Shown here piece after piece: positions 733-33,312 of a stretch of 64,000 nucleotides of DNA. The notes beneath the pieces were generated by a model, which ran no database searches, was not told the origin of the DNA, and saw only the letters and a list, made by a program, of their open reading frames with translations. The stretch is taken from contig NZ_CP090975.1 of NCBI RefSeq assembly GCF_021513215.1, positions 1,233,501 through 1,297,500 on the forward strand, written 5' to 3'. The number at the start of each line of letters is the position of its first letter. Position 1 is the stretch's first letter. The stretch is from Suttonella sp. R2A3. GTDB lineage: Bacteria > Pseudomonadota > Gammaproteobacteria > Cardiobacteriales > Cardiobacteriaceae. The translations under genes and the position numbers were made by a program.

Positions 733-2004
733 TTAAACCTTTGCTAAGGCCTGCTCAATGTCAGCAATAATGTCCTCGACGTCTTCAATCCCGATTGACA
801 GGCGCACCAAACCTTCACTCACACCCGCGCTCGCCAATTCTTCGGCATTGAGCTGGCGGTGGGTCGTGCTTGCTGGATGACACGCCAGAGTTTTGGTATC
901 GCCGATATTAACCAGTCGATAAATCAGCTCGAGCGCATCAATAAAGCGCCCACCAGCCTCAACACCACCTTCTAATTCAAAGCTTAAGATGCTTGAGGCC
1001 TTGCCTCCACAGATTTTATCTGCAGTCGCACGATACGGGCTACCCTCAAGTGTTGCGTAGTGTACTTTGCTGACCTTAGGCTGCTTCACTAACCACTGGG
1101 CAATCTTTTCCGCATTCTCACAGTGGCGATCCATGCGTAGCGCTAAGGTTTCCAAACCTTGCATGATTTGAAACGCGTTAAATGGCGATAGGGCCGAACC
1201 CGTATTGCGCAGTGGCACCACGCGGCAACGCCCGATATACGCCGCCTCTCCTAAAGCTTCGGTATAAACCACCCCATGATAAGACGGATCGGGTTCATTG
1301 AGCATCGGGAAACGCTCGGCGTGTTTTTGCCAAGGGAAGGTGCCTGAATCGACAATCATGCCGCCGATGGTTGTACCATGCCCACCAATATATTTGGTCA
1401 GTGCATGAACGACAATATGCGCGCCATGCTCAAACGGGCGACAGAGATAAGGGGTTGCCACGGTGTTATCAACGATCAGCGGGATACCGTGCGCATTAGC
1501 AATCTCAGCCCAGCGCGCAATATCGACCACATTCCCTGCTGGGTTACCGATCGACTCACAATAAAGCGCTTTGGTCTTATCATCGATTGAGGCTTCAATC
1601 TTATCGTAGTCATCATGGGCAACCATGCGCACTTCAATGCCTTGATTTGGAAAAGAGTGGGCAAAAAGATTGTATGTGCCGCCATAAAGTTGCGCGGTGG
1701 AAATAATATTACTACCCACATTGGCGATGGCTTGAATCGCATAGGTTATCGCGGCCATACCAGAAGCAACAGCCAATCCAGCAATACCACCTTCAAGCGC
1801 AGCAACACGCTCTTCTAACACAGCATTGGTCGGATTCATGATCCGTGTATAGATATTGCCTTGCACCTTAAGATCAAAGAGATCCGCACCGTGTTGCGTA
1901 TCATCAAACGTGTAGGAGGTGGTTTGATAGATTGGCACCGCAGCGGATTTTGTGGTGGGGTCGCCTTGATAACCGGCGTGGATAGCAGTCGTTGCAAATT
2001 TCAT
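733..2004 (-). CDS. metY: O-acetylhomoserine sulfhydrylase (Cys/Met metabolism PLP enzyme)
   Basis: A 423-residue fold-type I PLP enzyme that makes homocysteine from O-acetylhomoserine and sulfide in direct-sulfhydrylation methionine synthesis. The N-terminus has TTAIHAGY and PIYQTTSY; YTRIMNPTN (about residues 52-60) and ASGMAAI are phosphate-binding and active-site blocks; the internal-aldimine lysine is K204 in HALTKYIGGHG. The length of about 420 and the long middle section are typical of MetY rather than the shorter MetB/MetC. A GAGG-type ribosome site precedes the ATG. The upstream region carries a perfect inverted repeat (2071-2090). MetY makes the homocysteine that MetE, at 22.3 kb in this window, can methylate. 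Confidence 0.93.
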   Translation of the reverse strand: MKFATTAIHAGYQGDPTTKSAAVPIYQTTSYTFDDTQHGADLFDLKVQGNIYTRIMNPTNAVLEERVAALEGGIAGLAVASGMAAITYAIQAIANVGSNIISTAQLYGGTYNLFAHSFPNQGIEVRMVAHDDYDKIEASIDDKTKALYCESIGNPAGNVVDIARWAEIANAHGIPLIVDNTVATPYLCRPFEHGAHIVVHALTKYIGGHGTTIGGMIVDSGTFPWQKHAERFPMLNEPDPSYHGVVYTEALGEAAYIGRCRVVPLRNTGSALSPFNAFQIMQGLETLALRMDRHCENAEKIAQWLVKQPKVSKVHYATLEGSPYRATADKICGGKASSILSFELEGGVEAGGRFIDALELIYRLVNIGDTKTLACHPASTTHRQLNAEELASAGVSEGLVRLSIGIEDVEDIIADIEQALAKV

Positions 2005-3435: not shown

Positions 3436-3948
3436 ATGAAACGCTTCCTGCTACTTGTAATCGCGTGCCTCAGTTTGATTGGCACAGCGAGTGCCATGAA
3501 TCTCCCCTCAATCGAGAAACTCGACGACAGCGAACTCTATGTTCCTAGCCGCAAAGCGGTTGAAGCAACCTTAGATAAAATGCAGGTTCGCTATGAAATC
3601 GACGTCGATGGCGATATTGAAATCCCTCTCGAGCTTTCGGATTCAGGCGGTTCTCTGTACGTTATCGCCGAAGAAGTGAACGATGGTATGGTTTGGAATT
3701 TACGCATTTTCGCACAATTTTCCACCAAACCAAGTCGTTATGATGACCTCATTGAATACGCGAACGAATGGAATCGAGATACCAAAACCCCGAAATTATT
3801 TATGCTCGACGAAGAAACGATGGTTGCTGAAGCCAATTATCACGTGCAATTCGGCTACAACCCCGATGAGTTCGAGGAAAACTACTACTATTTCTTGATT
3901 AGCAACCTGGAAGATATTCTCAGCGCAACTTATAACGAGCGCATCTAA
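3436..3948 (+). CDS. Secreted YbjN-domain protein
   Basis: A 170-residue protein with a clear Sec signal peptide (MKRFLLLVIACLSLIGTASA, cleavage after residue 20) followed by an acidic domain of the YbjN / type III secretion chaperone-like fold. Family-like features are the paired tyrosines and the segment around SLYVIAEEVNDGMVWNLRIFAQF, with a helix ending in EWNRDTKTPKLFML. YbjN proteins have been linked to sensory or stress phenotypes but have no settled biochemical function. The gene stands alone, with an AAGGA-type ribosome site and a strong terminator directly after it. Export to the periplasm is inferred from the signal peptide. Confidence 0.75.
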   Translation: MKRFLLLVIACLSLIGTASAMNLPSIEKLDDSELYVPSRKAVEATLDKMQVRYEIDVDGDIEIPLELSDSGGSLYVIAEEVNDGMVWNLRIFAQFSTKPSRYDDLIEYANEWNRDTKTPKLFMLDEETMVAEANYHVQFGYNPDEFEENYYYFLISNLEDILSATYNERI

Positions 3949-3962
3949 GCACTATCTTAATC

Positions 3963-3993
3963 AAAAAAACTCGGCATCACTGCCGAGTTTTTT
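3963..3993. terminator. Bidirectional intrinsic terminator
   Basis: A-run, stem ACTCGGCA / TGCCGAGT with loop TCAC, then a T-run. The A and T tracts on both sides let it serve both the YbjN-type gene (plus strand) and the convergent EF-G-like gene (minus strand). Confidence 0.88.
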
Positions 3994-4000
3994 ATGCGCG

Positions 4001-6062
4001 CTATTCTTCTTCTGGCACCTGTTGATAGGCAGCCATCAAGCTTTGCTGCATAGCATGTGGTACCGCTTCATAATGCGACAAGGCTAAGGTGTAACGGCCT
4101 TGTCCGGCGGTTAGCGCATGAAGACGGGTTTGATAATCGGCCAATTCAGCCATCGGCGCATTCGCGGTAATACTCATCCCGCCGCGACTGTGGCTGTCTG
4201 TGCCGCTGACCATGCCACGTCGGCCGGCGAGATCACCGGTAATATGACCAATCGCCTCTTCCGAGCAACGAATGTTCAGGCGCGCAATCGGCTCTAGAAC
4301 TTGAGGTTCTGCCGCACGAATCGCGCGCTGAAAGGCCTTTTTTACCGGCGCTGACAAACGCGACTTCTTTACTATCAACGCTATGATGTTTGCCGTCATA
4401 AACCGTTACCCGCACATCAACCACCGGATAACCCGCGATCGCGCCTTCAGAAAGCACTTCACGAATGCCTTTCTCTACAGCCGGGATAAATTGCCCCGGG
4501 ATGACGCCGCCTTTGACCGCATCAATAAATTCAAAGCCTTCTCCGCGCGCTAACGGCTCAATACGCAGGTGTACCTCACCAAACTGCCCAGCACCACCGC
4601 TTTGTTTTTTATGACGGTATTGCCCTTCTGCTGCTTGGGTAATCGTTTCGCGGTACTCAATTTGTGGTGGCGCGGTGTCGACTTCAAACTGATGCTGGCT
4701 GCGTAGCCGCTCAAGCAGCGAACGCAGATGTAAATCACCCAAACCATAAAGGACTGTCTCATTGGTGCTGGCAATATGGGTTAAGCGCAAGCAAGGGTCT
4801 TCAGCGACCATTTTATTGAGTACTTCCCACAGCCGCTGTTCATCGCTTTGCTGCTGTGGCGTCAGTGCTAGACCATGCATTGGCATCGGGAAATTCAGCG
4901 GTTTCAGGCGAATATGAACATCTTCCGGGGCGTCGTGTAACACCGCATCAAACGCTAAATCTTCCACCTTAACCAGACTACAAATATCACCTGGAACAGC
5001 GGCTTCTAAGTTGATTTGCTGTTTGCCTTGTTGCACATATAGATGGGCGACTTTAAACGGCTTGCGCGCATCACCAATATAGAGCTGACTGCCCGGGCGA
5101 ATCGTCCCTTGGTGCACCCGAACCGCAGCAATTTTGCCAACATAGGGATCGATGCGGATATTAAACACATGCGCCAGCACATGCGCGGCCGGATCGGGGT
5201 CAGCAAGTAATGGCACAGCGTCCTCTTCCTCACCTTGTAAAAAGGTGGCCGGATTGCTCTCACACGGACTCGGCAACAGTTTATCGATTACCTCAAGCAG
5301 CGCGTCCACCCCCGCGCCTGTTTCAGCCGAAACAAAACACACCGGAATCAAATGGCCTTCTGCTAAAGCTTGCTCAAGCGGTGCGTGCAGTTCAGTGGCT
5401 GGAATATCGCCATCCTCGAGATAGCGCTCTAAAAACGCCTCATCAACATCCACCACTTGTTCTACCAAGGCATTATGTGCGGCGCTAACATCACCAAAAT
5501 CGCTTTGCCCTTTGCGGTTAAAAAAGCAATCCACTACATCACGAGCGCCATCGACCGGTAAATTAACCGGCAAACACTCACGACCAAATACTTCTTGGAT
5601 TTCTGCGAGCAACGCCGGCAGATCCGCCTCATGACTATCCATTTTATTGACAATCACCATGCGATCCATCTGTCGATCAGCGGCATAACGCATCATGCGT
5701 TGCGCCAGTGGATCAACACCAATTGCCGCATTAACCACAATCGCCGCTGTTTCCACCGCTTCAAGAGCCGCCATACTGTGGCCGATAAAATCAAGCATGC
5801 CGGGTGTATCGAGCAAATGCACGCGCGCATCCTGATAATGATAATGCAATAAGGCAGTATGCAAAGAATGTTGCTGAGCGATTTCCTGGGCATCAAAATC
5901 GCTGACCGTTGAACCTCGCGCTACCGAACCCGCGCTGGCAATCGCCCCAGCTTGGGTTAATAAAGCTTCTGCTAAAGTCGTTTTTCCGACACCACTCGCG
6001 CCAACCAAGGCCAAGGTACGGATATTATCGACTGCCATCGCAGCAAGGGAAGCATTTGCCAT
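4001..6062 (-). pseudogene. Elongation factor G-like translational GTPase, frameshifted near the C-terminus
   Basis: This is an EF-G paralogue (FusA2-like, 'elongation factor G-like' group), not the housekeeping fusA. The first frame runs 6062 to about 4340 and holds G1 GASGVGKTTL (residues 21-30), G3 DTPG, G4 NKMD, G5 SAETG, domain II, and domain IV with KKQSGGAGQFGEVHLRIEP. The C-terminal domain continues in another frame down to 4001 (KKAFQRAIRAAEPQVLEPI onward). The slip is at a run of six identical bases at 4338-4343 (A on the coding strand); five would restore the frame. Without repair the protein ends in about 30 unrelated residues and loses its domain V. Sequencing error, phase variation or true decay are all possible. 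Confidence 0.85.
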
Positions 6063-12485: not shown

Positions 12486-13151
12486 TTACGCGCTGCCATA
12501 ACGCTGGCGATACGCATCCATCGCAGGCAGGTATTGTTTAAGCGACTCATCCTCACTGATAAAACGCATCAAATCGCTTAACGACAAAACGGCATCGGTA
12601 GGCAATGCGCTATCCTCACCGACCGCTTGTAGCGCTGAACGCGGATCATTGTCACTCAAGCACTCTTGCCGATCGAGCGCCACCAATACCGCGCACGGCC
12701 TGGCCTGATGCTGCGCTAATAAGGCTAATGATTCGCGAATAGCTGTACCTGCAGTGAGCACATCATCCAAAATAAGCACCTGCTTATCTGTCACCGACGC
12801 GCCAACTAACACACCGCCTTCGCCGTGATCTTTCGCTTCTTTGCGGTTAAACGCCCACGGCAAATTGATCCCATGGCTCTGCGCTAAGATCACACTGGTT
12901 GCCGCCACCAAAGGAATCCCTTTGTAGGCCGGCCCGAATAACACCTCAATCGCCATCCCTTGCTCGAGCATAGCCACAATTCTGCTCGCATAAGCGCGCG
13001 CGATCGCCCACAACGCATCACCATCAGCAAACGCACCAGCATTAAAGAAATATGGACTAATGCGTCCTGATTTCAGGTTAAATTCGCCAAACTTCAGCGC
13101 CTGGACGCGGATCGCCGTGTTGATAAAGTCTTTTTGATATACTGCGAGCAT
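12486..13151 (-). CDS. pyrE: Orotate phosphoribosyltransferase
   Basis: PyrE joins orotate to PRPP to make orotidine 5'-phosphate in pyrimidine synthesis. At 221 residues it has the family start (KFGEFNLKSGRISPYFFNAG), the flexible catalytic loop with FNRKEAKDHGEGG and the PRPP-binding signature VLILDDVLTAGTA. Start codon ATG at 13151 lies only 24 bases from the divergent xthA start, so the promoters of the two genes must overlap each other's coding ends or be very short. Confidence 0.95.
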   Translation of the reverse strand: MLAVYQKDFINTAIRVQALKFGEFNLKSGRISPYFFNAGAFADGDALWAIARAYASRIVAMLEQGMAIEVLFGPAYKGIPLVAATSVILAQSHGINLPWAFNRKEAKDHGEGGVLVGASVTDKQVLILDDVLTAGTAIRESLALLAQHQARPCAVLVALDRQECLSDNDPRSALQAVGEDSALPTDAVLSLSDLMRFISEDESLKQYLPAMDAYRQRYGSA

Positions 13152-13175
13152 ATTGTTTTAATCCAGATTGTCGGT

Positions 13176-13949
13176 ATGTTTAAAATCATTTCGTTTAATG
13201 CCAATGGCATTCGCGCTGCTGAGCGCAAAGGCTTTTTTGATTGGTTGGCTGCGCAGGACGCTGATGCGGTGTGCATTCAAGAGACCAAAGCTCAGGAACA
13301 CCAGTTAAGCGCCAACCCAGTTTTCTCCCCGTTGGCGCACAATTATTATCATGACGCGGTCAAAAAAGGCTATAGCGGTACGGCATTGTACCTCAAGCAT
13401 CAGCCCGATGAGGTGATCAAAGGCATCGGTTGGCCAGAAATTGACGAGGAAGGCCGTTATATCGAGGCGCGCTATGGCGATTTAAGCCTGATCTCGCTTT
13501 ATATGCATTCTGGCACCAGTGGTGATCACCGTCAGGTTAAAAAAGAAGCTTTTATGGCCAAATTTTTACCGTATCTACAAGAAAAAGCCGCCAACGGCCA
13601 GCGGGTGATCGTTTGTGGCGATATTAATATCGCCCATACCGAAAAAGATATTAAAAACTGGCGTGGTAATTTAAAAAATTCAGGTTTTTTGCCGCATGAA
13701 CGCGAATGGCTAAGCGAATTATTCAGCAGCGGCTACACGGATGCTTTTCGTCTAATCAACCAAGAAGATCACCAATACACCTGGTGGTCACAACGCGGTC
13801 AAGCACGCGCGAATAACGTGGGTTGGCGGATTGATTACCACATCGTCAGTGACAACCTCATACCAATGGTCAAAAATGCCGCCATTTACACCGATGAGCA
13901 GCTTTCAGATCATGCACCGCTCATCCTTACTTATGATGACTTGCTCTAA
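13176..13949 (+). CDS. xthA: Exodeoxyribonuclease III family AP endonuclease
   Basis: A 257-residue Mg-dependent endonuclease/exonuclease/phosphatase-fold enzyme for base-excision repair of abasic sites. Catalytic blocks in order: SFNANGIRAA at the N-terminus, CIQETKAQ (Mg-binding Glu), the GDINIAHTEKDI block (catalytic Asp and Asn) and SDHAPL at the C-terminus (catalytic Asp-His pair). The start at 13176 matches the family N-terminus MFKIISFNANG; the frame extends 14 codons upstream into the pyrE start region without homology. The next gene, dsbB, begins 8 bases after its stop on the same strand. Confidence 0.92.
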   Translation: MFKIISFNANGIRAAERKGFFDWLAAQDADAVCIQETKAQEHQLSANPVFSPLAHNYYHDAVKKGYSGTALYLKHQPDEVIKGIGWPEIDEEGRYIEARYGDLSLISLYMHSGTSGDHRQVKKEAFMAKFLPYLQEKAANGQRVIVCGDINIAHTEKDIKNWRGNLKNSGFLPHEREWLSELFSSGYTDAFRLINQEDHQYTWWSQRGQARANNVGWRIDYHIVSDNLIPMVKNAAIYTDEQLSDHAPLILTYDDLL

Positions 13950-27122: not shown

Positions 27123-27148
27123 GACAACCATTAACGCTAATAGCAACC

Positions 27149-27175
27149 AAACAGGCGCATCTCAGCGCCTGTTTG
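27149..27175 (+). terminator. pnp terminator
   Basis: Stem AACAGGCGC / GCGCCTGTT with a 6-base loop and a short, weak T stretch (TTTG). A decayed version of the same hairpin is present in the second copy near 29588-29610. Confidence 0.7.
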
Positions 27176-27239
27176 TCACGTTAGCATCATCTTTATGATG
27201 AAACACAGGGTGGCGCGTCTGCACCACCCTTCTTAAACC

Positions 27240-27330
27240 GGAGAGATGGCAGAGTGGTCGAATGCGCACGCCTGGAAAGTGTGTATACGTTAATAGCGTA
27301 TCGGGGGTTCGAATCCCCCTCTCTCCGCCA
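27240..27330 (+). tRNA. tRNA-Ser (GGA)
   Basis: 91 nt, with a 7-bp acceptor (GGAGAGA / TCTCTCC), encoded CCA end, anticodon loop CTGGAAA giving GGA (reads UCC and UCU), long class II variable arm, and a T-arm GGGGG-TTCGAAT-CCCCC without mismatch. It lies about 120 bases after pnp. Confidence 0.96.
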
Positions 27331-27664
27331 CTTTTCACTTTCGCTCGAAATGGCTGAATGTGAAATACTACCAAGCGATACGTAATACTATTTTTGCGTC
27401 ACTTTTGCTGTCGGGTAGTTGTGACTTACACACTATGTAAAAGTTACTTGGGTTCGCTAACATTGATGAAGTAGGAAAACTCACTACCATTTATGAGCAA
27501 ATACTGGTTGAGCTACTTTCTTAATCTTTATTGTTATAGTCCAAATTTTTAGCCTCTTGTTCAGCTTTATGCCGCATGAATCATAAGGATTAAGCCCGCA
27601 TTTGAGGCTAGTTTAGAGCACAGCGAAAAACCAGTCCGATAACACATGCGCTTGTTAACGCTTT
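27331..27664. other. Non-coding stretch at the start of the accessory patch
   Basis: AT-rich sequence with no convincing gene. Around 27440-27525 a 28-codon open stretch on the plus strand (containing GFANIDEVGKL) ends in a stop and could be a gene remnant, but I do not recognise it. No integrase or inverted terminal repeat is visible. Confidence 0.4.
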
Positions 27665-28177
27665 TTACTTTAAGCCTGCCAAATACATCAACTCTTGTAC
27701 TACAACCCTAATTTCAGCATTTATTTTGTCGATATCATTTCTGACAGCGTTAAATCTCCTACTATGAGCGGATTTATCACCGATATCTTTGAGTTTTGGC
27801 AGAGCTTGTCGTGCATTTCTGCTTAGATTCCATATTTTCTCGTCGAGAGTTTTAGAAATTAAATCTGAGAGATAGAAAAAATCACCCATAGAGTTTTTAA
27901 TATTTTGAGCAATGTTATTATTCTCAAATGACTCAATGATCAATGTTTCAATAAGCCGCCTAATCATTACCGCACAAGCGTCATACCATCCATTTATATA
28001 AGTGCCATTTATCTGATGGGTTATACGCTCTAGATATCCTCGAGTTCCTCTTATGAGCTCGAAAGGGATGATGGGCTGCCCAATAGCTTCTAAACCTCCT
28101 TCAGGGGGTAGTAATGTATCTTCACAGTCTTTTTCAATGGCTGAAACTAACCCCTTGATGTCATTTGAAGAAAACAT
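27665..28177 (-). CDS. HEPN/DUF4145-like accessory protein
   Basis: A 170-residue, mostly helical cytosolic protein. The blocks NGWYDACAVMIRRLIETL (about residues 61-78) and IGDKSAHSRRFNAVRNDIDKI (about 131-151) resemble the DUF4145/HEPN type of helical bundle, where an Arg-rich helix is followed by a late R/K-x-x-x-H-like segment; here DKSAHSR. I do not assign an activity. It begins 4 bases after the stop of the DUF5343 gene, so the two form a unit and probably act together. Codon use and base composition are more AT-rich than in the flanking core genes, which suggests transfer. There is no membrane segment or signal peptide. Confidence 0.7.
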   Translation of the reverse strand: MFSSNDIKGLVSAIEKDCEDTLLPPEGGLEAIGQPIIPFELIRGTRGYLERITHQINGTYINGWYDACAVMIRRLIETLIIESFENNNIAQNIKNSMGDFFYLSDLISKTLDEKIWNLSRNARQALPKLKDIGDKSAHSRRFNAVRNDIDKINAEIRVVVQELMYLAGLK

Positions 28178-28181
28178 AAGC

Positions 28182-28904
28182 TTATTTATTAAAATCCTTT
28201 AAGTGCTTCGCCATACTTTCAAATATTTTGTCTATCTGTTCTGCTGAAGACTCTGGTGATATATGCAACTGTATGTTTATATGTAGCTCAGGAGCATTAT
28301 TTAAAACTGTTTGAACGGGCTGTGCTGCATGTGCTGGAATAGGTGTAACAGGGGTTTGAATACTAGGATCACTCTCAGAAACCTCAGCCTCTAGCTTTTT
28401 AACAGTTTTTACTTCCTTTTGCTTTGGCTTAACAGATGCTTTTTTTATGGTTTTCTTTTTTCCCGTTGCCTCTTCTGCTTCTGAAGGATCAGCTTTTAGC
28501 AATAAAATATAGAAACGCGCATACATTTTCGCAGCAGGCTCACCACACCTAGCATGGCTCATAAACCAATTTGTTAGCTGTTGTAGATCGGTATCGGGTG
28601 AATGAAATATATCTTTAATTTCCTGAGGATAATAATCCTCAATTAGATTCTCACATACCGCTTTATATTTTTGGTCATCTCTCCAGTCATATGCTCTATC
28701 CGTGGGCTTACCATCGCCATCAATTATCCCGATTTTTTTAAACGGGCCAATCAAGTTCGACTTTGCTGACGCTTCACTCATTGAAAGCGTTGATACCAAA
28801 TAGGTAGGAGTGACTATGGCTGGTACTTTCTGTTTGAAAAGATCTCTAAGCTTCCACCAGCTGGCAGCAGCTATTTTTGGAAAAGATGCATTCCCATTTG
28901 CCAT
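28182..28904 (-). CDS. DUF5343-domain protein, first gene of the accessory pair
   Basis: A 240-residue protein. Residues 1-135 resemble DUF5343, a winged-helix-like domain (ASWWKLRDLFKQ, then a MSEASAKSNLIGPFKKIGIID segment and the motif WRDD). Residues 140-195 are a Lys/Glu/Pro-rich linker (KKKTIKKASVKPKQKE). The C-terminal 35 residues form a small conserved-looking tail (LHINIQLHISPESSAEQIDKIFESM). A strong ribosome site GAGGAG lies 7-8 bases before the ATG. The possible DNA-binding fold suggests regulation or recognition, but function is unknown. AT-rich compared with flanking genes. Confidence 0.72.
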   Translation of the reverse strand: MANGNASFPKIAAASWWKLRDLFKQKVPAIVTPTYLVSTLSMSEASAKSNLIGPFKKIGIIDGDGKPTDRAYDWRDDQKYKAVCENLIEDYYPQEIKDIFHSPDTDLQQLTNWFMSHARCGEPAAKMYARFYILLLKADPSEAEEATGKKKTIKKASVKPKQKEVKTVKKLEAEVSESDPSIQTPVTPIPAHAAQPVQTVLNNAPELHINIQLHISPESSAEQIDKIFESMAKHLKDFNK

Positions 28905-29364: not shown

Positions 29365-29404
29365 GATTCGCCTCAAAGTGTTTACTTTCTACTAATCAAA
29401 GCGG

Positions 29405-29551
29405 TTAGTTGGTAGACATGAAGCCTTGATCAGCGCTGTAGTCGATATGGATCTCACTGCCTGGAGCAGGCTTGCCAGCGAGGATATCCTGCGCCAATGG
29501 GTTTTCCAAATACTGTTGGGTAGCACGCTTGAGCGGTCTTGCGCCAAATAA
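29405..29551 (-). pseudogene. clpB 3'-end remnant (48 codons)
   Basis: It encodes the last 48 residues of ClpB (LFGARPLKR... to ...STN plus stop) with only five substitutions relative to the intact gene at 30.7-33.3 kb (e.g. I to T, F to P). There is no start or upstream part. Its 5' edge (GCCAAATAA on the plus strand, 29543-29551) fuses directly into a copy of the pnp stop region. Confidence 0.92.
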
Positions 29552-29562
29552 GACTAATTTTT

Positions 29563-29767
29563 AACCATTAACGCTAACAGCAACCAGACAGGCACGCATA
29601 AGCGCCTGTTTGTCACGTTAGTATCATCTTTATGATAAAACACAGGGTGGCGCATTTGCACCACCCTTCTTAAACCGGAGAGATGGCAGAGTGGTTGAAT
29701 GCGCACGCCTGGAAAGTGTGTATACGTTAATAGCGTATCGAGGATTCGAATCCCTCTCTCTCCGACA
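29563..29767 (+). repeat. Direct repeat copy B: pnp trailer plus tRNA-Ser-like
   Basis: Second copy of 27126-27330. It directly follows the clpB 3' remnant via a pnp-like GACTAA (29552-29557). This order (clpB end, then pnp end) is what a head-to-tail duplication junction would give. Confidence 0.92.
29677..29767 (+). tRNA. Second tRNA-Ser (GGA)-like gene, probably decayed
   Basis: 91 nt, identical to the first tRNA in acceptor stem, anticodon (GGA) and variable arm. However, the T-arm has GAGGA/CCCTC with an A-C mismatch at the loop-closing pair (normally G53-C61), and the 3' end reads GACA instead of GCCA. It may be a pseudo-tRNA; it would need post-transcriptional CCA addition to work. 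Confidence 0.75.
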
Positions 29768-29791
29768 CTTTTGGTCTTATTTCTTACTCTT

Positions 29792-30484
29792 TTAGTCGTG
29801 TTTTAACTGTGGATTAATAGCTGCCGATACAATTCCATCAATATGTTCATGAAGATCGCTACTAATTTCATGCCACATTGGATCAAGAATAAAATCAATC
29901 CCTGCTCTGCGTGCCATTTTAGCAGCTGGAACAAAATCACTGTCTCCGGCAATAAGTACTATCTGATCAATATGACCTTCATATGCTAATGATGAAATAT
30001 CTAGACCAAGCCTCATATCAACACCTTTTTGTGTCATTTTGTATTTGATGTCTCGGGCTTCTAATTGTTCAATAGTCATTTTTTTAGATAGTAGTTTCTT
30101 TAATTGTTTCTCGCCTAATTGCCATTCTCCATAGGATGCAATCTTTCCTAACCTCAAAGCTAGTTTTCTTTTCTTTTTGAGTTCAATATGTAATTGTGAA
30201 CGGAATACAGCTGTTTTAGATATTTTTAAATCAATCTGTTCGCCCGTTAAAGGATGACATATTTTTTTAGTCTCAGGAGGGCAGTCATAAAAGAATATCC
30301 TGTAAAGTTCTCTTTTATGGAATCCATTATTTCTGGCTAATTGATTTAGTTTCTCTACATCTTTAAGTGCATGATGATATATATTTTTCGCCACTTGTTG
30401 TGGAGTATGTTCAATCCAACCTTTATTGAGTTTTTGGTACCTTTTTAGGAAAAAACCACCATCTATCAATACCGCAGTTTTCAT
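29792..30484 (-). CDS. NYN-domain (PIN-like, LabA/DUF88) ribonuclease candidate
   Basis: A 230-residue protein with the NYN fold: acidic strand 1 VLIDGGFFLKR (residues 5-15), VDMRLGLDISSLA (about 154-166) and VLIAGDSDFVPAAKMARRAGI (about 175-195), supplying the conserved aspartates of PIN-like metal-dependent nucleases. The middle (about 60-150) is a basic insertion rich in Lys. The gene is directly preceded by a terminator (T8 at 30496-30503), a structured RNA and a strong promoter, so readthrough would be needed for expression from that promoter. The ribosome site is weak. AT-rich relative to neighbours. RNase activity is inferred from the family. Confidence 0.8.
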   Translation of the reverse strand: MKTAVLIDGGFFLKRYQKLNKGWIEHTPQQVAKNIYHHALKDVEKLNQLARNNGFHKRELYRIFFYDCPPETKKICHPLTGEQIDLKISKTAVFRSQLHIELKKKRKLALRLGKIASYGEWQLGEKQLKKLLSKKMTIEQLEARDIKYKMTQKGVDMRLGLDISSLAYEGHIDQIVLIAGDSDFVPAAKMARRAGIDFILDPMWHEISSDLHEHIDGIVSAAINPQLKHD

Positions 30485-30495
30485 ACACTTTATCC

Positions 30496-30561
30496 AAAAA
30501 AAAGCCCCAAGTTTCGGTTACATCTTGATTTGCGATGCACTTACTCCAGAGGGGCGGATTC
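30496..30561 (-). ncRNA. Candidate structured RNA with terminator directly upstream of the NYN gene
   Basis: From a predicted start near 30561 to a T8 run at 30496-30503, about 66 nt. The outer stem pairs GCCCC (30551-30555) with GGGGC (30504-30508), followed immediately by eight T. Inside, GCATC pairs with GATGT (GCAAATCAA loop), and GG with CC can extend it. It ends 12 bases before the NYN start codon. No small ORF is obvious. This may be a cis-regulatory leader, an sRNA, or an antitoxin-like RNA. Confidence 0.6.
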
Positions 30562-30567
30562 GCAGTT

Positions 30568-30596
30568 ATTATAGTCAACTTATAGTGATATAGCAA
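30568..30596 (-). promoter_or_regulatory. Sigma70 promoter of the small RNA/NYN unit
   Basis: On the minus strand TTGCTA (30591-30596), an exact 17-base spacer, and consensus TATAAT (30568-30573). This is one of the best promoters in the window. Confidence 0.7.
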
Positions 30597-30692
30597 GCTT
30601 ATTCTCACCCACAAAAAATAGATGATTCAAGCGTTGTTATTTTTATCTTTTGATACCATTTAATACATTGCTTAATAAAATAGTTAATCTCT

Positions 30693-30717
30693 AAAAAACG
30701 CCCCTTGCGGGGCGTTT
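30693..30717 (-). terminator. clpB terminator
   Basis: On the minus strand, stem CGCCCC / GGGGCG with a 4-base loop followed by TTTTTT, 22 bases after the clpB stop. Confidence 0.9.
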
Positions 30718-30738
30718 GTTTTGTGCTGATAAACGCGG

Positions 30739-33312
30739 TTAGTTAGTAAATGTGAAGCCTTGATCGGCGTTGTAGTCGATATGGATCTCGCTTCCTGGGG
30801 CAAACTTGCCAGCGAGGATATCCTGCGCCAATGGGTTTTCCAAATATTGCTGGATAGCGCGCTTGAGCGGTCGTGCGCCAAACAATGGGTCATACCCCAC
30901 TTCCACCAATTCATCGAGCGCGTTATCGCTGATCTTGAGCTGTAATTCGCGCTCTTGTAAGCGGCGCTCAAGGTGTGCCAACTGGATGCGCGCAATATCA
31001 GCCATATGTTCTTTACCCAATCCGTGGAAGACCACCGCTTCATCAATACGGTTAATGAATTCCGGACGGAAATGACTGCCAACCACTTCCATCACCGCGT
31101 CCTTCATTTCCTCATACGATTTCTCACTCATCGCCTGAATCAGATCACTACCAAGATTCGAAGTCATGATGATTACGGTATTGCGGAAATCCACCGTGCG
31201 CCCTTGTCCGTCGGTCAAGCGGCCATCATCGAGCACCTGCAAGAGAATGTTAAACACATCACCATGCGCTTTTTCCACCTCATCAAAAAGGATCACTGAA
31301 TACGGCTTACGGCGCACCGCTTCGGTGAGATACCCACCTTGGTCATACCCCACATAGCCCGGAGGCGCACCAATCAAACGTGCGACGCTGTGTTTTTCCA
31401 TAAATTCGCTCATATCCACACGAATCATCGCTTCGTCGCTATCAAAGAGGAACTGCGCCAAGGTGCGTGCCAATTCGGTTTTACCGACGCCAGTTGGACC
31501 TAAAAACAGGAACGAGCCAATCGGACGGTTCGGGTCGGACAAACCCGCGCGGCTACGGCGAATCGCGTTCGATACCGCCTCAACAGCGGCCTGCTGACCG
31601 ATCACACGCTGATTGAGTACGCTTTCTAGCTGCAGCAGTTTTTCGCGTTCGCTTTCCATCATTTTACTCACTGGAATGCCCGTCCAGCGCGAAACGATGT
31701 AGGCGATTTCCTCATCGGTTACTTCACTGCGCACCAATTGGTTCTCTGGAACGTCTTCAGCGCTTTCTGCTTCTGCGCGCCGTTTTTCTAACGCGGGCAG
31801 CTCGCCGTATTGGATTTCGCTCATTCGCGCAAAATCGCCTTGTCGCTTCGCAGCTTCCAATTCTGTGCGCAGCTTATCGATTTCCTCGGTAATGCTCGCG
31901 CCGTCTTGAATATTGGCCTTCTCAGCCTGCCAGATTTCTTCCAAATCCGCGTATTCTTTTTCCAGTTCGGCGATATCGTCTTCAATATCCGCCAAACGTT
32001 TTTTCGACGCATCATCAGATTCTTTCTCGAGCGCCAAACGCTCCATTTTCAACTGGATCAAACGGCGATCGATGCGGTCCATGCTCTCCGGCTTAGAATC
32101 AAGCTCCATACGGATTTGCGCCGCCGCCTCATCGATCAAATCAATCGCTTTATCCGGCAATTTACGGTCGCTGATATAGCGATGCGATAACACCGCTGCC
32201 GCCACCAACGCCGGGTCGGTAATCTTAATCCCGTGGTGGACTTCGTAACGCTCCTGCAAACCACGCAAGATCGCAATCGTATCTTCCACGCTCGGCTCAT
32301 CAATGATCACTTTCTGGAAACGACGCTCCAATGCCGCATCTTTTTCCATATGCTGACGGTATTCATCAAGCGTCGTCGCGCCGATACAATGCAATTCACC
32401 GCGCGCTAACGCAGGCTTGAGCATATTGCCGGCATCCATCGACCCTTCGGTTTTACCCGCACCAACCATCATATGAATCTCATCAATGAACAGAATGATC
32501 TGCCCATCGGATTTTTCAATATCGGTCAATACCGCTTTTAAGCGCTCTTCGAACTCACCACGGTATTTGGTGCCTGCGAGTAATGCAGCGAGGTCTAATG
32601 ACAACAGACGTTTGCCTTTCAAGCTTTCGGGCACTTCTCCATTAACAATGCGCTGTGCGAGCCCTTCAACAATCGCGGTTTTACCCACGCCAGGCTCACC
32701 AATTAACACTGGGTTATTCTTGCTGCGACGCTGCAAAATCTGCATCGCACGACGAATTTCCTCGTCACGACCGATCACTGGGTCGATTTTGCCGTCTTCA
32801 GCGCGCTGAGTAACATCGAGGGTATATTTTTTCAGTGCTTCGCGTTTATCTTCAGCATTTTCATCGGTGACTGGTTCACCACCGCGCAATTCATTAATCA
32901 CCTCAGTGAGCTTGGCTTTTTGTGCGCCACTGTCTTTTAAAACGGTCGCTAGCGGCCCTTTGGCCTCAAGCATGGCGAGCAAGAACAATTCTGATGAAAT
33001 GTAACTGTCGCCGTTTTGCTGCGCTGCTTTATCGCATAAGTTCAATAAACGAATCGTTTCTGGCGACGCATTGACCTGTCCAGTAGGGTTGCCCACAGTC
33101 GGCAAATCAGCAATCAACGCATCAAGTTTTTGTCGCAAGGTCGCGATGTCTACCCCTGCTTGACGCAAGATAGAAACGCTCGCGCCACCTTGTTGATTAA
33201 GCAGCGCATGCAGGATATGCGCAGGCTCGATTTGATTATGATCTTTGCCGACTGCTAAAGACTGCGCAGCGGCAATCGCTTCTTGAAAGCGTGCGGTCAT
33301 TTTTTGTTGCAT
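30739..33312 (-). CDS. clpB: ATP-dependent disaggregase ClpB
   Basis: ClpB, with DnaK, dissolves protein aggregates after heat shock. The 857 residues are full length: N-domain (1-about 145), AAA1 with Walker [10 protein letters not shown] (near 205), the coiled-coil middle domain (about 400-525), AAA2 with [12 protein letters not shown] (near 600) and the D2 C-terminal part. The start ATG at 33312 is preceded by GAGGATC. A sigma32-like promoter lies 37-64 bases upstream. The last 48 codons are duplicated as a remnant at 29405-29551. Confidence 0.97.

Follow-up and report, generated by a model that had tools for sequence, protein, structure and literature searches.

Results

Arrangement of the Locus

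The window analyzed was a 64,000-nt stretch of the Suttonella sp. R2A3 genome (contig NZ_CP090975.1). On its minus strand, a promoter was followed by a compact RNA, a terminator and a nuclease gene (Table 1), an order which had been described in the original prediction and which both the sequence and the family models supported. The RNA was about 59 nt long, with the inner stem GCATC/GATGT, was present as a single copy in the genome, and was separated by 11 nt, counted from its T8 run, from the start codon of the NYN gene (ATG at 30484). Its P1 stem comprised 5 bp and one internal mismatch, and the internal loop opened with GAGUAAG, not CAGUAAG. Folded alone, the window RNA was unexceptional (z = -0.34 with 74 nt; z = -1.83 with 60 nt); this fold alone would not convince, and it was homology and comparison that decided the case for the RNA. 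As predicted, the window RNA was a single unit without tandem repeats, and the same held for almost all relatives.

Table 1. Features of the RNA-NYN locus, in window coordinates.
Feature	Position	Strand	Details and basis
-35 element TTGCTA	30591..30596	-	Sequence and promoter scan
-10 element TATAAT	30568..30573	-	17-nt spacer; ends 12 nt 5' of the RNA; sequence and promoter scan
Structured RNA of the NYN-associated family	30497..30555	-	R2 30.3 bits, R3 39.8 bits; window in neither model
P1 5' arm GCCCC	30551..30555	-	Folding, R3
P1 3' arm GGGGC	30504..30508	-	Folding, R3
Internal-loop motif GAGUAAG, conserved	30540..30546	-	Family consensus CAGUAAG; alignments A1/A2/A7
P2 hairpin GUGCAUC...GAUGU(A)AC, apical AAUCAA	30517..30540	-	Family apical loop AUCC / AUAAGG; folding, R3
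3' internal-loop motif CCGAAAC, conserved	30511..30517	-	Family CCGANCC; alignments, R3
T8 run, intrinsic terminator tail	30496..30503	-	Sequence
NYN (PIN-like) nuclease gene, 230 aa, phrog_5783	29792..30484	-	PF01936, AF2, MARF1 NYN match

The NYN-RNA cassette had 34% GC vs. 50% in the flanking clpB and pnp. No clean empty site next to clpB was found in relatives, as gene order beside clpB was not conserved among them.

A tandem duplication was observed between pnp and clpB (window positions 27126-27335, 29563-29772, 29380-29551 and 30714-30885), its parts being a copy of a tRNA with its flank (92% identical) and a copy of the clpB 3' end (86%). It framed two different AT-rich cassettes, the NYN-RNA cassette and a DUF5343 gene pair (28182-28904 and 27665-28177, minus strand), and its arrangement suggests a recombination hot spot. 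The DUF5343 protein matched the PADLOC candidate PDC-M34A (E = 4.8e-14) and its neighbor encoded a DUF4145-like protein; the pair is a possible second defense cassette at the same spot.

Nuclease

The open reading frame of the nuclease matched PF01936 (E = 7.5e-12; 46.4 bits against a cut-off of 24.2 bits) and no other Pfam family, and was assigned to phrog_5783 in PHROGs, a family with no function assigned. A search of PDB sequences with the protein gave no match. The AlphaFold2 model (pLDDT 92.7) was closest, among solved structures compared with VIA-align, to the NYN domain of MARF1 (Z 15.6, rmsd 2.9, 144 residues aligned), followed by VPA0982 (Z 14.7, rmsd 3.5, 151 aligned), with T5 exonuclease well below both (Z 9.8). 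Unrelated Rossmann folds in the plain Foldseek ranking were set aside, the NYN fold being resolved by VIA-align. The acidic residues D8, D162, D181 and D183 were invariant. Both the sole Pfam match and the fold thus agreed with the prediction of an NYN enzyme, not a ToxN.

RNA Family and Covariation

Upstream regions were compared for 80 homologues of the NYN protein in GTDB genomes (44-57% identity). Most carried the consensus [GCCCUUGG]-CAGUA(A/C)-[GC + variable stem]-AUCC loop-[stem]-CCGANC-[CCAAGGGC]-U-run. Two models were built with the window left out, R2 from 30 relatives (alignment A2) and R3 from 67 relatives (alignment A7; additions mostly prophage). Both matched the window RNA (R2, 30.3 bits, E = 1.6e-6; R3, 39.8 bits, E = 3.4e-10), and R3 had no other match in the window.

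The structure examined was the nested P1/P2. In A2, which was not aligned to the R2 structure, 12 of the 15 pairs were changed on both sides, and the covariation score was 0.475 vs. 0.199 with shuffled and at most 0.239 with slid partners. In A7 all 15 pairs were changed on both sides (191 vs. 52 cells; score 0.535 vs. 0.214 shuffled), counts that are biased towards the R2 structure because A7 was aligned to it.

The window RNA belongs to a wide, covarying family of RNAs linked with the NYN nucleases of mobile elements. Members were located directly 5' of NYN genes in Acidobacteriota, Pseudomonadota, Planctomycetota, Lentisphaerota, Bacteroidota and Bacillota, on plasmids and in many prophages. 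The original prediction had named covarying stems at a conserved position upstream of NYN homologues as the check to be made; this check came out strongly positive and, with a family spanning several phyla, the observation was if anything understated. A scan at Rfam gathering scores left the RNA unmatched in the window and in 12 loci, mostly of proteobacterial, acidobacterial and planctomycete-group origin. Weak R2 matches in gammaproteobacterial loci were rejected as chance where they lay inside coding sequence (L099, L101) and were probably chance also in L097, L098 and L100.

Coupling of the RNA to NYN Genes

Of the 80 genome loci, 48 had a match to R3 (E ≤ 0.01) directly 5' of the NYN gene, as did 60 of the 80 IMG/VR viral loci. 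A strict, model-free layout (outer stem ≥ 7 bp, five T in eight positions, at most 90 nt from the start codon) was present before 88 of 109 NYN genes (81%) vs. 47 of the 852 remaining genes of these loci (5.5%). When viral sequences were scanned without conditioning on NYN, 6 of 11 informative RNAs preceded an NYN gene and 5 did not.

Of the R3-negative loci, 27 from genomes made up one RNA-less group from Rhodanobacteraceae and kin, in which the strict layout occurred in 2 of 27; representatives formed one clade in a quick tree (100% support) and retained the invariant acidic residues. The RNA-less proteins of Rhodanobacteraceae (L037, L042, L060 and kin) had 220 aa, fell in one clade, and are possibly domesticated. 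Another 14, all viral, had lambdoid or similar NYNs, preceded by an RNA which differed in sequence and kept the layout. Over six lambdoid-type sequences pairing was 100% and both partners varied in five of the pairs, the RNA diverging along with the NYN subclade.

Promoter-like sites upstream of the RNAs had a mean score of 8.1 vs. 4.4 for shuffled sequence. The commonest distance between the end of the -10 element and P1 was 10-14 nt (41 of 107 loci; 12 nt in the window), and another group of loci had 25-40 nt. Short palindromes such as GTACAAC-N-GTTGTAC were noticed by eye in the gap between promoter and RNA of five prophages (L129, L130, L158, L180 and L191); they are perhaps repressor operators.

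RNA Without an Intact NYN Gene

An intact RNA accompanied a broken NYN gene in five loci (L025, L048, G021, G015 and L093, the last by deletion), some of which may be assembly or sequencing errors, and prophage genes decay anyway. RNA-only copies occurred in genomes without any NYN and in phages. A Campylobacter plasmid kept the core motif (R3 16.6 bits) and had, by eye, a separate terminator-like hairpin between the RNA and NYN.

Several copies had other neighbors. In L198, a genome without NYN, the RNA (1501-1557, minus strand; 60.8 bits) lay between an HTH phage-repressor-like open reading frame and a Schlafen AlbA_2 (SLFN_AlbA_2) gene. On the viral contig L240 (9219-9277, plus strand; 69 bits) it lay 3' of an HTH repressor and about 250 nt before an open reading frame with a RelA_SpoT domain. 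L134 had two copies on the plus strand, one before NYN (2933-2989) and a stronger one between NYN and an integrase gene (3945-4001), and in L250 the RNA also preceded an integrase. Two viral copies had no NYN nearby (L254, 1921-1976; L264, 7785-7841; both minus strand), that of L264 being upstream of terminase- and portal-like genes; both are possible decoys.

Mobile Setting

In prophages the module was located beside the lysogeny genes. All 10 prophage downstream neighbors tested were integrases (tyrosine or serine). In lambdoid phages and in a P22-like Proteus phage the NYN gene followed a CI-type repressor, a slot which in lambda is occupied by rexAB. The module was also carried by conjugative plasmids of Campylobacter and Xanthomonas, and 274 of 5,426 E. 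coli genomes had an NYN match, 73 of them covering most of the query. Three NYN-RNA loci (L033, L044 and L066) were near a C4 antisense RNA, L033 with isrK as well, pointing to P1/P4-like prophages or satellites.

Relation to TEG147

The Rfam family TEG147 (RF03535) matched two relatives above its gathering score (L166, 58.3 bits; L222, 80.9 bits), and on the prophage contig L222 the gene right after the match was an NYN (13115-13786). TEG147 is one branch of the NYN-associated RNA family that was already in Rfam. It shares with the window RNA family the P1-internal loop-P2 architecture plus U-run; the Rfam model itself fails to reach the window RNA, on which RF03535 gave no match. The link emerged only with prophage relatives.

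Teg147, an RNA known from transcriptomics, has been tabulated, without Northern validation in that table, as a 60-nt bona fide sRNA of S. aureus (386294-386353; PMC5826253) and lies on a genomic island (PMC3053349); the Rfam family originated in a course (PMC7779021). Neither Rfam nor the Teg147 papers found made a link to NYN or to other phyla, TEG147 DNA was absent from the phage and plasmid records searched, and a literature search which reached few subscription papers or preprints yielded nothing published on an antitoxin RNA linked to NYN.

Discussion

A Proposed RNA-Neutralized Nuclease

The analysis established the RNA family, its structure, its coupling to NYN genes, its prophage and plasmid setting and the NYN fold. 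With moderate confidence, the locus is read as a mobile module of an RNA antitoxin and an NYN ribonuclease, similar to type III toxin-antitoxin systems, for which we infer binding, toxicity, neutralization and a trigger. The promoter would fire just 5' of the RNA, whose own terminator would stop most transcripts and yield an RNA of about 60 nt, infrequent read-through giving small amounts of NYN mRNA. The conserved internal loop (CAGUAA / CCGANCC) would bind the NYN protein and keep it inactive. If transcription halted, as upon phage takeover, or if the element were lost, the short RNA would decay and the freed nuclease would cut RNA, resulting in abortive infection, superinfection exclusion or retention of the element. 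That the RNA acts beyond its own mRNA is suggested by intact RNAs beside broken NYN genes, by copies in NYN-less genomes and on viral contigs, and by the separate hairpin of the Campylobacter plasmid. Against the antitoxin reading, the RNA-less clade with its acidic residues kept indicates that some NYNs can do without the RNA.

The main rival, unlikely and yet deserving weight, is that the RNA is a cis-acting leader, a terminator plus translation block which NYN would bind, and perhaps cut, to set its own level, NYN being a regulatory or defense RNase harmless to the host. Such cis-control suits an RNA which is almost always immediately 5' of NYN and is itself the terminator, and whose 3' arm abuts the NYN start codon in some loci (L002, L013, L014, L016 and L028), close enough to block ribosomes; Rfam lists TEG147 under the type Cis-reg, and the RNA-less NYN clade is viable. 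However, the promoter commonly lies close to P1, and the 10-14 nt of the largest group would leave little leader space for an alternative antiterminator, although another group has 25-40 nt; a TEG147-type RNA has been detected as a discrete sRNA, and RNA-only copies in genomes without NYN and the separate Campylobacter hairpin also speak against a leader. ToxIN and AbiF/RCd22 reportedly exert both kinds of control (PMC12373285), so the antitoxin and cis readings are not exclusive.

An RNA that serves as cofactor or sensor, so that NYN would be active or targeted only when RNA-bound (guide-like or allosteric) in a defense ribonucleoprotein, is improbable. The near-invariant unpaired loop nucleotides in so small an RNA, paired with a nuclease across several phyla, would suit it, and an origin of RNA-guided Cas13 from AbiF has been discussed; but the RNA has no variable segment resembling a guide, even its short apical loop is conserved (AUCC/AUAAGG), and the RNA kept beside broken NYN genes is better explained by neutralization.

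To a similarly low degree, the RNA might be a portable control element of lysogeny regions, regulating any accessory gene between repressor and integrase, of which NYN would be merely the commonest; the strong RNAs before SLFN_AlbA_2, integrases and, at a distance, the RelA_SpoT open reading frame speak for this. NYN is nevertheless the usual neighbor even in the scan not conditioned on it, copies on plasmids and chromosomes that lie away from lysogeny modules pair with NYN too, and the divergence of the RNA follows the NYN subclade. An ordinary intrinsic terminator or insulator 5' of a horizontally acquired gene, as the GC-rich stem, the T-run and the unremarkable fold energy in the window would allow, is very improbable against the conserved internal-loop sequence, a P2 covarying across phyla and a layout so much rarer before other genes.

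A wider and more tentative form of the RNA-neutralized nuclease reading is that of a hitherto unrecognized RNA-NYN family of toxin-antitoxin or abortive-infection systems, pan-bacterial in range and disseminated by temperate phages and plasmids, in which TEG147 would be a branch and against which phages with the RNA only would carry it as a decoy. If the reading is true, RNA-neutralized nucleases would extend beyond ToxN-like and HEPN enzymes to a very widespread NYN-domain example, and both phrog_5783 and TEG147, so far an orphan family of S. aureus sRNAs, would acquire a testable function. The system is simple, one 60-nt RNA and one 230-aa enzyme, and its occurrence in E. coli lambdoid prophages makes defense and counter-defense testable.

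Comparison With Known Systems

With type III systems (ToxIN, CptIN and TenpIN) the module shares promoter, RNA, terminator and ribonuclease gene as well as the mobile setting; it differs from them in lacking tandem repeats and a demonstrated pseudoknot, and in an NYN fold rather than one of the ToxN/AbiQ family. With neither repeats nor a ToxN, it is not classed as a member of ToxIN. The RNA-only phage copies recall the pseudo-ToxI of phage PhiTE (PMC3475682).

In AbiF/RCd22, a prophage-borne RNase-type toxin is neutralized in cis and in trans by a compact upstream ncRNA (PMC12373285), and the window module is similar in its compact ncRNA preceding an RNase-type gene and in being prophage-borne among relatives. 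AbiF is, however, a HEPN/Abi_2 protein and RCd22 consists of two abiF motifs, whereas here the enzyme is an NYN and the RNA a single unit of another fold; cmscan with RF03085 (abiF motif) gave no match in the window and the relatives scanned, and Pfam gave NYN only, with no Abi_2 (HEPN) domain, for the window nuclease. LabA-like/NYN RNases, such as the MARF1 NYN and VPA0982, have the same fold as the window NYN, which is distinguished from them as a bacterial phrog_5783 protein coupled to an RNA.
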